A stretch of DNA of 64,000 nucleotides from Candidatus Hydrogenedentota bacterium (GTDB lineage: Bacteria; Hydrogenedentota; Hydrogenedentia; Hydrogenedentales; SLHB01): the NCBI GenBank assembly GCA_016215105.1, contig JACRLJ010000006.1:1-64000 (forward strand), given 5' to 3'. A program made the translations under genes and the position numbers. How positions within the stretch are numbered: the stretch's first letter is position 1; every line of letters begins with the position of its first letter. Of the stretch, positions 10,777-48,847 are shown one piece after another. The notes under the pieces were generated by a model. The model saw only the letters and a list, made by a program, of their open reading frames with translations. It searched no databases and had not been told where the DNA came from.

Positions 10777-12114
10777 TTACTTGTTCGTCGGCGCCACTGG
10801 ATCCGCGCTCGGTATCCGGACGGCAAAGCGCACCAAGCCCGGCTTATTCAATTCTAAATGCGCCGACCCTCCATGCGCCTCGGCGATCCTTCTGACAATC
10901 GCCAGGCCGAGACCCGTGCCCTGCGGCTTCGTGGTGAAAAAAGGCTCGAATAGCTGAGACGCCGCTGTCACTGAAACAGGGTCTCCGGCGTTCTGCACGT
11001 ACAGTTTGACCAGAGAATCGGCGCCCTGTTCGCAGCCGATCTCTATTTCGGATTCGGGACCGCTCGCCTCGAGCGCGTTCGTAATGAGGTTGAGCAGCGC
11101 CTGGTGGATCTGAAACGGTTCAACGTTTACCGTCTCGTTACCGCCGCAAACGCATCGAATCCGTATCCCCTTTTCGCTGGCGCGCGCCCGCGCCACGTCC
11201 GCCACGTACCGGAGCATCGTCCGCACATTTGTCGGCTCCGTGTGAAGTTCCGTGCTGCGCGCGTATGCCAGGAACTCCGTGGTGAAGCGTTCGAGCCGCC
11301 GCGCTTCCTCTATGGCAATGTTGAACATCTCGTCCCGAAGCGCGGCGTCGCTTTCGCCCTTCTTGACCATGGCCAGACTGCTGGCGATCATCGCAATCGG
11401 ATTACGGATCTCGTGCGCGATTCCGCTCGAGAGCCGGCCCACCGCCGCCATCTTCTCCTGTTTGACGAGTTGGTCTTTGGCGCGCTCGAGTTCGGACATC
11501 GCGCCGCGAAGCCGATTCTGTTCCTTGCGCAAGTTACTCGCCAAGAGCCAGACGACAAGACCGACCAGCAAATAAATAAAAATCGTTCCGGATGCTTCAA
11601 AGTACTCGGTGAGATTGCTGGAGGGATTTCGCCGATAGAAATCCCACACTTCCGCCATGGAAACGAAGCTCGCGCACGCTGCAACGCAAAGCGTGGCGGG
11701 AAACGACGTCCGGAACCCCGCCGCGATGACCGGAAGCACGAGCAGCACCGTGTAGTGGGTGTCCTCATTCTTGGACACGATCGACACCAAGGTGGCAAAC
11801 CCCAAGTGCATCAGAATCGAGAAGCGGCTGTATAGAAACTGCGCCTTGGGGCTAATCGGGCTCTCGCGCGCGCTAAGCCACAGCAACTCGCCGGTTTGTA
11901 TCAGAAAGCGCCCGCCGAATAGCGTAAGAATCGCGCGTGTTGGCCACCCCAGCAGTGATTGAAAAGACAAATGCAGGAGGAGAACGGACGACATGATCGC
12001 AAGATTGGTGAGGATCAGCGCCGATTCCTGTGCGCGAAACGCGCTATAGCCGGAATCCAGCGGAAAGAGCGCGACATTCTGCTGAGCGTCCGTATGACCC
12101 TTCCCGTTTGGCAT
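10777..12114 (-). CDS. Membrane sensor histidine kinase
   Basis: H-box 'LSSGIAHEIRNPIAMI', N-box 'LLNLITNALEA', 'GTGLGLAIVRRIAEAHGG'; adjacent to the response regulator. Confidence 0.92.
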   Translation of the reverse strand: MPNGKGHTDAQQNVALFPLDSGYSAFRAQESALILTNLAIMSSVLLLHLSFQSLLGWPTRAILTLFGGRFLIQTGELLWLSARESPISPKAQFLYSRFSILMHLGFATLVSIVSKNEDTHYTVLLVLPVIAAGFRTSFPATLCVAACASFVSMAEVWDFYRRNPSSNLTEYFEASGTIFIYLLVGLVVWLLASNLRKEQNRLRGAMSELERAKDQLVKQEKMAAVGRLSSGIAHEIRNPIAMIASSLAMVKKGESDAALRDEMFNIAIEEARRLERFTTEFLAYARSTELHTEPTNVRTMLRYVADVARARASEKGIRIRCVCGGNETVNVEPFQIHQALLNLITNALEASGPESEIEIGCEQGADSLVKLYVQNAGDPVSVTAASQLFEPFFTTKPQGTGLGLAIVRRIAEAHGGSAHLELNKPGLVRFAVRIPSADPVAPTNK

Positions 12115-12225
12115 GACTCAATTATATCGGAAGCGGGCGCGATTATCAGCGAACGTGAGCCGACTCGCCGCTCAGACGTTCACGGGCGCGGCAATCCGTA
12201 CTGGAATGTCCTCCTTTGGCGCGGC

Positions 12226-21480: not shown

Positions 21481-21543
21481 GTAGCGCCGGCATCTTGCCG
21501 GCAAAGTTCAGTTGCCGCGATGCCGGTAAGATGCCGGCGTTAC
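21481..21543. repeat. GTAG-type REP pair (63 nt), copy 1
   Basis: gtagcgccggcatcttgccggc...gccggtaagatgccggcgttac; near-perfect inverted arms; homologous 63-nt block at 48785. Confidence 0.8.
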
Positions 21544-35735: not shown

Positions 35736-36047
35736 TTACGCCTGAATCTCGCGGACCTTCAGTTCGGTGTAGTACTGGCGGTGACCTTGTGTACGAACGT
35801 AGCCTTTGCGGCGTTTCTTTTTGAAGACGCGAATCTTCTTGCGCCGGTCTTGGGCGATAACCTGACAAACTACCTTGGCGGTCGTCAGTTTCGCGCGATC
35901 CACAACCAGGCCATCGTCCTTCGCTAGCAGGCAGACATCGGTCAACTCGACCGTCTCGCCTACCAGCGCACTGAGTTTTTCGACTCGGACGAGGTCGCCC
36001 TGGGTCACCTTAATCTGCTTACCGCCCGTTGTCACCACTGCGTACAT
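35736..36047 (-). CDS. rplU: 50S ribosomal protein L21
   Basis: 'MYAVVTTGGKQIKVTQGDLVRVEKL', 'KKIRVFKKKRRKGYVRTQGHRQYYTELKVREI'. Confidence 0.96.
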   Translation of the reverse strand: MYAVVTTGGKQIKVTQGDLVRVEKLSALVGETVELTDVCLLAKDDGLVVDRAKLTTAKVVCQVIAQDRRKKIRVFKKKRRKGYVRTQGHRQYYTELKVREIQA

Positions 36048-36099
36048 GGTCTCGATCTCCACCTTTGCGGCTGGGACCCGTCCCGCCGCGTATCATTCA

Positions 36100-36903
36100 T
36101 CACTTGCTGAAGGCCAGCGCCGCCGCGCGAAGTTCCGCGCAGGCTGACAGCGAGGCCAGATAACTCGTCTTCGGGTTTGCCGGCGACGGCACATTCTCCG
36201 TCAGTGTTCGCAGGCGCCCAAAAGCGCCTTCGGCCACCACTTCATGGCTATTCACATTCGACCCCGGCTCCGCGATTACGCGAACCGTGGTTCGATCAAT
36301 TCCAATACCCGCTAAACTCAACGCAACGGCCACATTAACGTTTTTCGGAAAGCCCTTGATGGCATCCCGGGCCGTGCCCTCAAATACCACGGTCGGCTCC
36401 GTCAACGCGTCCAAGTCGATTCCGCGTTCGACGATGTACGGCGCGCCAGCCAAGCCTTTCGGCGGCTTCCGCGTCGTCAGCGTTACCCGGTCGAGACCGG
36501 CCTCGCGCGCTGCCCGAACGCCATCCACTCCGCACAACGCTCCGGACGGCAGCCGAACCTGGATACCGGCATCCTGCGTACGCGCCAGCAAATCCGGTTC
36601 CGCGACCAGCCCGCCAATGCTCATAATAAGGCAGTCGCGGTGATGGCGGATGGCCGCCTCGATAACCGGTTTGACGGCCCCGGGCGCTGCCGCTTCGACC
36701 ACGAAATCCGCAGCCGATACGGTCGCGTCCACCGTACCCAACTTAGCATTCAACTTGAACTTATTCACCAGCGCAACCGCTTGCGCTTCAATCACATCCG
36801 ATACCGCGACAATCTCCGCCGCGATGCCGCCCCGTTCAAGCGCGGCGCACAACTCCGCGGAGATGTTGCCACAGCCTACCAAGCCTACTTTCATGTTAGC
36901 CAT
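36100..36903 (-). CDS. nadX: Aspartate dehydrogenase
   Basis: 'KVGLVGCGNISAELCAAL', 'VVEAAAPGAVKPVIEAAI', 'GALCGVDGVRAAREAGLDRVTLTTRKPPKGLAGAPY'. Confidence 0.85.
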   Translation of the reverse strand: MANMKVGLVGCGNISAELCAALERGGIAAEIVAVSDVIEAQAVALVNKFKLNAKLGTVDATVSAADFVVEAAAPGAVKPVIEAAIRHHRDCLIMSIGGLVAEPDLLARTQDAGIQVRLPSGALCGVDGVRAAREAGLDRVTLTTRKPPKGLAGAPYIVERGIDLDALTEPTVVFEGTARDAIKGFPKNVNVAVALSLAGIGIDRTTVRVIAEPGSNVNSHEVVAEGAFGRLRTLTENVPSPANPKTSYLASLSACAELRAAALAFSK

Positions 36904-37097
36904 GAGGCGTCCAAAAACAGCACCCGGCGCGCTTCAAACGGCCTTATTCAAGGCAGCCAAAGCCCACCGATCTGATGTCGCGAGAATCGTTTACGGTCAA
37001 AGATCGGGGTAAGTTAGCATATGGCGGAAGTTGAAGTCAAACTTCCGATATCACGAACTTAGCCTACAGCTTCTGATTCCAAGGGCGTAAGAGGTAG

Positions 37098-37154
37098 CCC
37101 ATGGCGCAAGCCGTGGGACCAGAGATAATGCCTGAGCGCCAGCCCTGTAAGGGC
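37098..37154. other. Compact hairpin-rich intergenic element
   Basis: CCCATGGC-GCAA-GCCGTGGG (37098-37117, GNRA-type loop) and GCCCT-gta-AGGGC (37142-37154). Confidence 0.35.
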
Positions 37155-37225
37155 GAAAGAGATCTTGCGTGGCGCGTGAGTTGTACACTACGACGCCAAC
37201 AGTGTGAATCTGCGTCTCCAGACGC

Positions 37226-37289
37226 CGTGTCCGGCCCCAAGGCATGTGGTAGACTGGTCGGCATGGACAACCCTGCCGCAGAAAAGGCG
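37226..37289 (+). promoter_or_regulatory. Duplicated promoter/start cassette, copy 1 (extended -10 TGGTAGACT, 7 nt before ATG 37263)
   Basis: cgtgtccggccccaaggcatgtggtagactggtcggcATGgacaaccctgccgcagaaaaggcg matches 38194-38258. Confidence 0.6.
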
Positions 37290-38099
37290 CCCAATCCGTG
37301 GCTTGCGATGACCATAGACGACGCGCGCGAGTACGACGAACGGAAGGAGACTTATCCTCTCAGGAACCACGTTGCCCTTTCGCGGCGGGTGGCCTGGGAG
37401 TTGATTCTACCGCATCTTCCCAACGACAAATCTCTCGAAGTACTGGAAGTCGGAGGAGGCACCGGCTTCTGGAGTATACGCCTCGCTCTGGAGGGTTGGC
37501 GTGTAATGCTTACAGATCCGGCGCAGGGACTATTGGACTGCGCGAGGGAGAAGCTACTGGCCTTAGGGCTGTTGGATAAAGTAACCATCATGAGTGCGGA
37601 TGTCTGCGATCTGAGCGCGTTCGCTTCGGAATCGCGTCGTCTCGTGCTCGCCATGGGAGACCCGCTTTCATACTGCGGAGACGCTGTCAAAGCGCTCCGA
37701 GAAGTCTGGCGCGTCACACAAGCCGGTGGCGTGCTCATTGGGAATGTTGAATGCCGGTACCGCGGGATTGACGCTCGAAGAGCCCCGTCTTGGTCAGATG
37801 CGCAGCGCATATTGACGGAGGGAATCGGGTACTGGCCGGGCCCGCATCACCACTTGGCCATCCAAATGTTTACGCCTTCGGAATTCAGATCATTGGCGGA
37901 ATCGGTCGGATGGCAGATGCAAGTAATGCGCCCTTCGGATCTGTTGCTTTCTCTTGTGGGAAGGGAACTGCTTAACGACGCCTTCGCTCGTGGAATTGAT
38001 CTGGAGGAGCTTGCGGAATTGGAGCTTCGTCTCGGCGAAGACCCCAGCTTGCTTGGGGCGGGCACGGATATATGGTTCGTGATGTCCAAACCCCGGTAG
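37263..38099 (+). CDS. Class I SAM-dependent methyltransferase
   Basis: 'LEVLEVGGGTGFWSIRLALEGWRVMLTDPAQGLLDCAREKL', 'AMGDPLSYCGD'; internal Met at 37263 inside the shared cassette. Confidence 0.82.
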   Translation: MDNPAAEKAPNPWLAMTIDDAREYDERKETYPLRNHVALSRRVAWELILPHLPNDKSLEVLEVGGGTGFWSIRLALEGWRVMLTDPAQGLLDCAREKLLALGLLDKVTIMSADVCDLSAFASESRRLVLAMGDPLSYCGDAVKALREVWRVTQAGGVLIGNVECRYRGIDARRAPSWSDAQRILTEGIGYWPGPHHHLAIQMFTPSEFRSLAESVGWQMQVMRPSDLLLSLVGRELLNDAFARGIDLEELAELELRLGEDPSLLGAGTDIWFVMSKPR

Positions 38100-38193
38100 G
38101 CGATTCCATTGTTCTTGTGCGATTACGTTGACCACCCACTGCCGACCCGCTGATTTGAAGACCATAACGGGCGCTGAATTATGCCTCGCATAG

Positions 38194-38258
38194 CGTGTTC
38201 GGCGCCCAAGGCATGTGATAGACTGACCGACATGGACAACCCTGTCACAGAAAAGGTG
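38194..38258 (+). promoter_or_regulatory. Duplicated promoter/start cassette, copy 2 (extended -10 TGATAGACT, 7 nt before ATG 38232)
   Basis: cgtgttcggcgcccaaggcatgtgatagactgaccgacATGgacaaccctgtcacagaaaaggtg. Confidence 0.6.
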
Positions 38259-38630
38259 TTTCCCGTCTTTGAGCGGTTTCCAGGGCTCAAACTGGTGTAC
38301 TTTTTCGGATCGCGCGCTGCCGGTGATCCCGGGCCGATGAGCGACTACGATTTCGCGGTGTATTTCGACGGCCTGAGCAATCGCGAAATAATGGACAGCC
38401 AGCTAAGCCTTCTGTCCGAATTGCAGAAGGCGCTCGCCACCGACGCGGTTGATCTTGTCGTACTCAACACCGCCGAAGCCCCCGAACTGAAGTACGAGAT
38501 CATCAAGAATGGCCTGCTCATCTACGATGTCGAACCCTACCGTGTCCTAGTCGAGCCGCAAATCCTCAACGAATACTTCGACTTTTACGACGGCCTTAAG
38601 CGATTCGGCCTGACGCGAGCGGCGCCATGA
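38232..38630 (+). CDS. MntA-like nucleotidyltransferase (antitoxin of a HEPN/MNT module)
   Basis: GSX10DXD motif 'FGSRAAGDPGPMSDYDFAVYFDG'; overlaps the following HepT ORF. Confidence 0.85.
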   Translation: MDNPVTEKVFPVFERFPGLKLVYFFGSRAAGDPGPMSDYDFAVYFDGLSNREIMDSQLSLLSELQKALATDAVDLVVLNTAEAPELKYEIIKNGLLIYDVEPYRVLVEPQILNEYFDFYDGLKRFGLTRAAP

Positions 38631-39040
38631 CAAGTCTGCGCGTTATTGAAAATAAGATTGCTTCCGTTCACAAATACATCAAGCTCCTGGAAATCTACAA
38701 GGACCGTAGTCAAACGGAAATCGAAAACGACCCTACGCTTCGCGGGGCGGTCGAGCGATATTTGTATCTGGCCGCTCAGGCGTCGATTGATCTTGCCGAG
38801 GCGACTATCGCCTACAAGCACTATCGCAAGCCCGCAACGAACCGGGAGTGCTTCGAGATACTCGTCGAGAATGCCCTCATCGAGAGGAACTTGGCGGATA
38901 GGCTCATAAGAATGTGCGCATTCAGGAACATGCTCGCGCACGCCTATGATCGAATTGACTACGGCGTCGTTGTCGACGCGCTGAACGGCTCCTTGCCGGA
39001 CTTGGATGAATTCACCAATGCGATAAAGCAAGTGAATTGA
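38627..39040 (+). CDS. HepT-like (DUF86) HEPN ribonuclease toxin
   Basis: RX4HXY motif in 'MCAFRNMLAHAYDRIDYGVVVDAL'; 'ALIERNLADRLIRM'. Confidence 0.85.
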   Translation: MTSLRVIENKIASVHKYIKLLEIYKDRSQTEIENDPTLRGAVERYLYLAAQASIDLAEATIAYKHYRKPATNRECFEILVENALIERNLADRLIRMCAFRNMLAHAYDRIDYGVVVDALNGSLPDLDEFTNAIKQVN

Positions 39041-39128
39041 CCTACACGTCCGCTGCCCGTCTGCATATCCACAATGAAACTATGTTAGCCCGGTTCTTGA
39101 AGGCAGGCAAAACAGGAAGAACACGCAC

Positions 39129-40328
39129 ATGATGAAGAATACAATTGCGCTCTTAGTGATGGCGTGCGCCGCGAGTACGCTGGCGGCGGCGCAGGGCCAA
39201 AACGGACGTGAAGGCGCCACGCTTTACGTATCCAAATTGGGCGACAACACGGACGGTTCGTCGTGGAAGAAGGCATTCAATACGATCCAGGCCGCATTGT
39301 CAGCCGTGCCCGACGACAAAGGAGGGCATCGTGTCGTTGTGCGGCCCGATACGTATGCGGAAGCCAATCTCGATCCGGCTTTCAAGGGAGCAGCCGGCGC
39401 GTACAACACTTTGATAGGCGATTTCGACGGGAGCCTGGGATCGGGCGCAACGGGCTGGGCGGTGATTGACTCCGGCGCGGTGGACGTCATTGTGCGGACG
39501 GATACCAATGACACCGCGGGCAATCCCGGTTGGAAACTGCTCGACAAAGGCGACCCGAAAAACGAGTGGGGGCTCAAAAGCATTGACTGGTGGGGAACGA
39601 CGCGTTGCTCGCCGAGTCACTCTGCTATCCTTTGGGATCGGTGGAAACTCAAAAACCTGTACATGACCGGCGCTGAAGGGTCTGGCTGGGACCTCACGAT
39701 AAACAAAGGCGCTGAATTCTCCACCATCACCGAACATTGTGTCGCCATTGGCCGATTCTCCGGGATTTGCGTGGGCGCGTTTGTCGGCAGGCGCGACGAA
39801 CCGGTGCTGATTAAGGACTGTTTCTCGATGTGCATGGACTGGTGGGGCGACGCGGCCGGCATCTACATTCGCGCCGAGAATCCCAAGCCGAACGACTATC
39901 CCGATGTCGTCATCGAGAACAGTACGCTCGTGGGCCCTGACAACGCGCTCCAAGTGGGCAATCCGGGTTTCGCCGGCTACACGCGCATTCGCCTAAAGGA
40001 CTGCCGGCTGTTCTCGCTGAACTTCTCGCAGCCCACCGGACAGCCATCTACCGGTGTCATCTATCATACCTTGGACGGCAAATTGCTCCACGTCGATTTG
40101 GAGGACTGCCTGCTGGCGGGCTACAAGATATTTGGTAGCGGAGGCCGGCAGTTTGGCGGCGACATACGTCCTGAAGGCGCGGCGATTTCATACACGCTCA
40201 AGGGCAAGGTCCGCGCTTACGTGCATTTCAGGCAGCCTGTTCCGGAAGGAATGGAGCGACTGCGCTACTGGCCGGTGGCGGATTTCGAGTACATGCTCCC
40301 ACCGGAGTTTCATAATCCAAAACCGTGA
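39129..40328 (+). CDS. Secreted protein, probable right-handed beta-helix fold
   Basis: Signal peptide; 'LYVSKLGDNTDGSSWKKAFNTIQAALSAV' N-terminal pattern seen in beta-helix proteins. Confidence 0.6.
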   Translation: MMKNTIALLVMACAASTLAAAQGQNGREGATLYVSKLGDNTDGSSWKKAFNTIQAALSAVPDDKGGHRVVVRPDTYAEANLDPAFKGAAGAYNTLIGDFDGSLGSGATGWAVIDSGAVDVIVRTDTNDTAGNPGWKLLDKGDPKNEWGLKSIDWWGTTRCSPSHSAILWDRWKLKNLYMTGAEGSGWDLTINKGAEFSTITEHCVAIGRFSGICVGAFVGRRDEPVLIKDCFSMCMDWWGDAAGIYIRAENPKPNDYPDVVIENSTLVGPDNALQVGNPGFAGYTRIRLKDCRLFSLNFSQPTGQPSTGVIYHTLDGKLLHVDLEDCLLAGYKIFGSGGRQFGGDIRPEGAAISYTLKGKVRAYVHFRQPVPEGMERLRYWPVADFEYMLPPEFHNPKP

Positions 40329-40359
40329 ACTTCGGGAGCGGGACGTTCCTGAAACGCCA

Positions 40360-41631
40360 TCAGAACGCCGGATCGCTGGGTTTTGGTTCCCCGTCAAACG
40401 TTAGTTCGATGACGTTAATGAATTCACCCGGCGGATAGGCAGGGAGATCGTGCAACCAGACGCGATCGCCGCGCTGTTCGATTCGCGCGGCCTGTCCGGT
40501 CGCCAGCGCCTTGGCCGAAACCACGTTAGCGCCGATCCAGGCCAGGGGCGCCGTGCTGCCTGGCCAACGCTGGCATTGCAGGTAGACCTTGTTACCCACG
40601 CGGGTGGTCATGCCCAGGTTCGGCGCATCAATGGGTGATTTGACCGCGCCATAGATGGAACTGCCGTTGACGGTCATCCATTGACCCATTTCCCGGAGGC
40701 GATCCACCTGTTCGCGGGGAATTGTCCCCTCGCGATCCGGACTCACATTCAGCAGCAGATTCCCCCCTTGCGAAGCGCACGAAACAAGCACGCGAATCAG
40801 TTCGGCGGCGGGCTTGTAGTTCGTGTCATAGGGACAATAGGCCCAACTCCGGTTCATGGTGTAACACGATTCCCAGGCTTTGCCGCCCGGCGTGACGGTA
40901 TTCTCGGGCGTGCCGAAATCGGCGGGTACGCCCGCGCGATCATTGATTAGAATATCCGGTTGCAGTTCGCGCGCCATGGCATTGAGTTCTTTCGAGCGCC
41001 ACAGCTCCGGATCCGTAGGGTGGAGCGCGTCGTACCACAGAATATCGATTTTGCCGTAGTTCGTTAGCAGTTCACGCACCTGCGCGTGCGCCTGTTCGAT
41101 CATGGGCGCATATACTTCGGGTTTGCCTTTAATACCCATCGGAAGCACGCCGGGAAACCGCCAGTCCACCAGCGAATAATAGAACCCGATCCGCATGTCC
41201 GCTTCGCGGCAGGCCGTTACAAACTCGGCGACAAAATCCCGTTTCGCGCCGGTTTTTACCGATGTGAAATCGGAAACGTGGCTATCGAACAGACAGTACC
41301 CGTCATGGTGGCGCGTGGTAATCACGACGTACTTCATGCCCGCCGCTTTTGCCAACGCGACCCATTCGCGCGGATTGTAATGGCGTGGCTGAAACTCTTC
41401 CGCCAACTTGGCGTATTCTTCGGCGGGAATATGCTCCTGGTACTTAATCCACTCGCCGCGCCCCGGAATGGCGTAGACGCCCCAGTGAATGAACATCCCG
41501 AAGCGCGCCTGGTTCCACCAGGCCAAACGCCCGTCCTGTGCGCTGGACTCGGCCGCTTGGGCGGGGACCATACTCAGCAACAGGGCGAGCACAAGAAGCA
41601 CGCAAACCCGACAACGCGGTAGTGATGGCAT
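40360..41631 (-). CDS. Alpha-L-fucosidase (GH29), secreted
   Basis: 'WWNQARFGMFIHWGVYAIPGRGEW', 'KYVVITTRHHDGYCLFDSHVSDF', 'IDILWYDALHP', 'NLLLNVSPDREG'. Confidence 0.93.
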   Translation of the reverse strand: MPSLPRCRVCVLLVLALLLSMVPAQAAESSAQDGRLAWWNQARFGMFIHWGVYAIPGRGEWIKYQEHIPAEEYAKLAEEFQPRHYNPREWVALAKAAGMKYVVITTRHHDGYCLFDSHVSDFTSVKTGAKRDFVAEFVTACREADMRIGFYYSLVDWRFPGVLPMGIKGKPEVYAPMIEQAHAQVRELLTNYGKIDILWYDALHPTDPELWRSKELNAMARELQPDILINDRAGVPADFGTPENTVTPGGKAWESCYTMNRSWAYCPYDTNYKPAAELIRVLVSCASQGGNLLLNVSPDREGTIPREQVDRLREMGQWMTVNGSSIYGAVKSPIDAPNLGMTTRVGNKVYLQCQRWPGSTAPLAWIGANVVSAKALATGQAARIEQRGDRVWLHDLPAYPPGEFINVIELTFDGEPKPSDPAF

Positions 41632-48784: not shown

Positions 48785-48847
48785 GTAGCGCCGGCTTCCA
48801 GCCGGCAAAGTCCAGTCGCCACGAAGCCGGCAAGATGCCGGCGCTAC
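48785..48847. repeat. GTAG-type REP pair (63 nt), copy 2
   Basis: gtagcgccggcttccagccggc...gccggcaagatgccggcgctac; same length and spacer as 21481-21543. Confidence 0.8.

Follow-up and report, generated by a model that had tools for sequence, protein, structure and literature searches.

The locus between 37226 and 39040 raises the question of why two neighbouring genes with unrelated products should begin with almost the same DNA. In the window (the whole 64,000-nt stretch that was analysed), a methyltransferase gene and the antitoxin gene mntA each start within one copy of a short repeated block, which reaches from the upstream region through the ATG into the first codons. Answering the question requires the extent and uniqueness of this block, the nature of the two genes behind it, and the kind of gene start that it provides.

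Extent, identity and copy number of the shared 5' block

According to the original prediction, a ~64-nt block upstream of and into the methyltransferase gene recurs before mntA, with similarity ending abruptly on both sides. Such a block is present on the plus strand at 37226-37290, with promoter, ATG and first methyltransferase codons, and at 38194-38259, with promoter, ATG and first mntA codons. Two small amendments apply: the similar stretch is about 63-66 nt long, and the second copy begins at 38194. The copies are 87% identical over 63 aligned positions (37226-37288 versus 38194-38256), one 1-nt indel included, and the second copy was recovered with E about 1e-14 in a search of the whole 6.67-Mb genome, which rules out chance similarity of the two blocks. 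In a search of the genome, the whole block as query matched in exactly two places, and a third copy was absent from the 6.67 Mb, where a dispersed or mobile repeat family would be represented by more than two. A model derived from the two copies was run over 68 genomes of the phylum; it scored 98 and 94 bits on the copies themselves and 25.3 bits on the next best match, and the 67 other genomes held no copy of the block. Self-comparison of 36001-41000 gave no further significant repeat and no extension of the similarity, which does stop abruptly at both sides, and the block is therefore not the remnant of a still-recognisable larger duplication.

The copies differ by nine substitutions, all transitions, and by the 1-nt indel; at eight of the nine sites a G or C in the methyltransferase copy stands against an A or T in the mntA copy. 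The substitutions affect the free n of TGn, the 7-nt spacer, and codons 5, 6 and 9. Unchanged are the -10 hexamer, the TG, the 7-nt distance, the ATG and the first four codons, and CCCAAGGCATG, upstream of the -10, is identical in both copies. As the copies are only 87% identical, the duplication is neither recent nor an assembly artefact. The two blocks are of common ancestry, stand before unrelated genes, are unique in the genome and have kept a promoter-like geometry.

When the 5' regions of 1549 ORFs (1.84 Mb, 27% of the genome) were all compared with one another, about 200 pairs of unrelated genes at first appeared similar. Apart from the methyltransferase/mntA pair, the similarity came from dispersed repeats, mostly of palindromic type, in which the common 'starts' are for the most part accidental TTG or GTG codons, and a cassette frequent in the compared 1.84 Mb is thereby ruled out. 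Within the 1.84 Mb, the methyltransferase/mntA pair is the only private block in which the ATGs of both unrelated genes occupy the same column. Of the copied 5' cassette that had been proposed, common ancestry in front of unrelated genes therefore stands, while a recurrent or mobile cassette falls with the count of only two copies.

Dispersed palindromic repeats of several families (e.g. GGCCAGAAAGC...GCTTTCTGGCC, CTTCTTTGTC...GACAAAGAAG and GTAGCGCCGGC...GCCGGCGCTAC) are abundant between the genes of this genome. Sites include 37084-37166, 48785-48847, 21481-21502 and the loci L058, L070, L085, L093, L098 and L128, among others, and mechanical ORF calling runs into them.

The two genes and their start codons

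The upstream gene (37263-38099, plus strand) encodes a class I SAM-dependent methyltransferase of 278 aa (Methyltransf_25, E=1e-13), the best relative of which, 34% identical, was found in one of the 67 other genomes. Behind it lie mntA (38232-38630, plus strand), for an MntA adenylyltransferase antitoxin of 132 aa (NCBIfam NF047752, 73.9 bits, cut-off 60; Pfam Polbeta), and hepT (38627-39040, plus strand), which adjoins mntA with a 4-nt overlap and codes for a HepT RNase toxin of 137 aa (NCBIfam NF047751, 105.8 bits, cut-off 60). The type VII toxin-antitoxin module HepT/MntA is defined by the motifs GSX10DXD and RX4HXY (PMC7641770), which are present here as GSRAAGDPGPMSDYD in MntA and RNMLAHAY in HepT. 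Based on the mntA-hepT order, both signature motifs and scores above the curated cut-offs, the pair is assigned to this type, and antitoxin action by adenylylation of HepT by MntA is predicted. What sets the locus apart from the known module is the methyltransferase gene ahead of the pair, which carries the same 5' block. Directly downstream of hepT, 39129-40328 encodes a protein of 399 aa that probably has a signal peptide and gave no Pfam match.

Both products begin with MDNPxxEK, as had been read from the codons after the ATG. The view that the proteins are unrelated also held, since methyltransferase and MntA belong to different families and have no N-terminal domain in common. The closest relatives of MntA, 48-55% identical, are found in Patescibacteria (L153-L158), where they adjoin hepT in both loci checked (L153 and L154), while within its own phylum the identity of relatives over the matched part does not exceed 38%. 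As the nearest relatives thus lie in Patescibacteria and only distant ones in the own phylum, lateral transfer of mntA-hepT (38232-39040) is likely. With relatives in the phylum few or distant, methyltransferase and mntA are both accessory genes here. Plasmid searches returned only distant relatives of MntA and of the methyltransferase, and no close ones.

In alignments with MntA homologues, the M of MDNPVTEK falls on their first residue (e.g. MKKELEEKIREIFERFQAVKLAYFFGSRA versus MDNPVTEKVFPVFERFPGLKLVYFFGSRA), and 38232 is therefore the native start of the family. The N-terminus of the methyltransferase is variable among relatives, and in one homologue (L024) the shared YD comes 7 residues earlier. 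A lengthening of the methyltransferase by the block was considered and dropped, as the PDB relatives 2avn and 6uv6 have equal N-terminal length. An alternative in-frame start at 37101 is covered by the copy of a dispersed intergenic repeat at 37084-37166 (plus strand; related sequence also lies at L069, L113 and L123 in this genome), which makes this start unlikely and 37263 the better one.

Promoter geometry and probable leaderless-type starts

The predicted arrangement of TGnTAGACT, 7 nt and ATG is found in both copies. On the plus strand, the candidate extended -10 elements read from the sequence are TGGTAGACT at 37247-37255 and TGATAGACT at 38216-38224, which together with the 7 nt and the ATG span 37247-37265 and 38216-38234. 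In each case TAGACT begins 13 nt before the ATG. This agrees with the TANNNT about 12 nt upstream of the start that has been tied to leaderless genes in bacteria (PMC3160421), a link confirmed by experiment in Deinococcus (PMC12340547; Deinococcus-Thermus). Direct reading of the sequence found no Shine-Dalgarno (SD) sequence before 37263 or 38232, again as predicted and as expected of leaderless genes, and neither copy has a convincing -35. On its own, TGNTAGACT+N7+ATG is a motif of background frequency, with 43 matches in the 68 genomes versus 37 for the reversed control, while the whole block is far beyond chance. A pattern scan also gave 7 matches in viral contigs.

Gene-start statistics, taken over 1.84 of the 6.67 Mb, describe a genome that is mainly SD-led: SD words reach up to 9% per position at 10-15 nt before first ATGs, against 0.1-0.4% for internal ATGs. 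TAnnnT 12 nt before starts is a minority signal (1.4 vs 0.3%, p=6e-5). TAnACT 13 nt before an ATG coincides with a gene start in 7 of 16 cases versus a background of 13.5% (p=0.003), and in 5 of 14 when the window pair is left out; generic TAnnnT at exactly 13 nt was enriched in a first sample and not significant in a larger one.

A single ABC-ATPase gene accounted for three of the bare-pattern matches, through orthologues in two families, and 30 orthologues were therefore examined across the phylum (L220-L249; own copy G000:C160:61456-62352, minus strand). TAnnnT stands exactly 12 or 13 nt before the ATG in 27 of the 30, and nowhere else between 6 and 25 nt in any of them. It is preceded by TGn in 26 of these 27, and an SD occurs in a single orthologue (1/30). 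Several of the ABC-ATPase promoters have a convincing -35, unlike the block copies. The extended -10 fused to the ABC-ATPase ATG is accordingly a leaderless-type promoter conserved phylum-wide. The geometry of the block is thus kept throughout the phylum at another gene, a comparison that speaks strongly for such leaderless starts being functional here, and geometry and comparison together support leaderless starts at 37263 and 38232. The leaderless expression that had been suggested is thus favoured by the lack of an SD, by the geometry and by the ABC-ATPase conservation, although we infer it for a genome in which SD starts dominate. Its promoter shows by comparison that leaderless starts are in use in the phylum, and the ABC-ATPase gene is also a clean gene to test.

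The two starts resemble known leaderless genes (PMC3160421, PMC12340547, PMC3898074) in a -10 hexamer 12-13 nt before the ATG, counted from its first base, in the lack of an SD and in a weak or absent -35. They differ from them in the extended -10 (TGn), in the SD-dominated genome, and in that the unit is a copied block before two unrelated neighbours. The leaderless transcripts of M. tuberculosis are enriched in toxin-antitoxin modules (PMC3898074).

Two further starts of similar appearance were seen. In a histidine kinase gene (HisKA, HATPase_c; 10780-12114, minus strand; promoter-like site at 12110-12126), TATAAT lies 12 nt ahead of the ATG, and the gene is a further leaderless candidate within the window. 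In the same genome, a DUF2400 gene (G000:C159:113879-113897, L005) starts 7 nt after TGCTAGACT.

Origin of the block and competing explanations

The probable explanation is a single local duplication of a leaderless-type promoter with its ATG and first codons, one copy per gene. The duplicated 5' end of 63-66 nt would have comprised the extended -10, the ATG and the first eight codons, and would have been copied once within the locus, such that two adjacent accessory units, the methyltransferase and mntA-hepT, each received a copy of their own. RNA polymerase would recognise TGnTAGACT in each copy and begin the RNA at or within 1-2 bases of the ATG. Both messages would then be leaderless and translated from a 5'-terminal AUG without an SD, and the two genes would be similarly expressed. 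As the start of mntA is native to its family, we lean slightly to mntA as the donor of the block. Alternatively, the locus could possibly have been imported already duplicated. The observation behind the original prediction is confirmed, and its interpretation as a copied leaderless cassette, partly supported by the comparisons above, appears to be largely right.

A shared operator or RNA element is a rather unlikely alternative. Here a regulator would bind the inverted repeat TGTGRTAG/CTGYCRCA, or a longer leader would fold into a hairpin; the repeat spans the -10 and codons 4-7, the ATG would lie in the hairpin loop, and the similarity would have been kept for common regulation. The same 8-bp helix can be formed in both copies, with one pair compensated from G-C to A-U, and the unchanged stretch upstream of the -10 would also fit. 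However, the folding energy is no better than that of shuffled sequence (z about 0), no Rfam family matched, no further sites were found in the genome or in the 68 genomes of the phylum, and an RNA hairpin would need a transcription start upstream of the -10. Conservation of all pairs together with one double change was reached in about 10% of simulations, which leaves a shared operator or hairpin as a possibility only.

That the block is a recombination site is improbable. The methyltransferase would in this case have been inserted, or could be lost, as a 969-bp unit through recombination between the two direct copies, with mntA then placed behind the upstream copy. Direct repeats do flank exactly one gene and both genes are accessory in the phylum, but nine differences and one indel argue against recent exchange, and the genome contains no other such site. 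Very little likelihood remains for a dispersed intergenic repeat that extends into both genes by accident: the genome does have many dispersed palindromic repeats close to gene starts, including one that lies 59 nt upstream of copy 1, whereas the block exists in two copies genome-wide, is not strongly palindromic, and has ATG and frame at the same column in both copies. One translated N-terminal domain common to homologous proteins, perhaps starting further upstream, had been named beforehand as the refuting case and is rejected as hardly credible, since, despite a frame open upstream in both copies (SxPKACxRLxxMDNPxxEK), the folds differ, the motif is absent from homologues of either gene, in-frame differences alter the encoded residue, similarity ends with codon 9 and the upstream extension of copy 1 crosses a dispersed repeat.

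Under the preferred duplication of a leaderless-type 5' end, the arrangement has a simple consequence. Because the promoter, transcript start and ribosome start of a leaderless gene fit into about 20 bp, a single short duplication can be enough to turn on a new gene, and this locus looks like a natural example of a gene switched on in that way. Perhaps, though we regard this as doubtful, the block is a portable leaderless cassette that supplies transcription and translation before any frame and that has here placed a methyltransferase and a toxin-antitoxin pair under the same control. Fusion of a promoter to a start codon is a known arrangement, and its copying adds a small and uncommon variation. 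In variable surface-protein genes, 5' regions are likewise shared, several genes having the same promoter and first codons. Those genes form a family that recombines, whereas the present case concerns two unrelated genes, one event and an old divergence.
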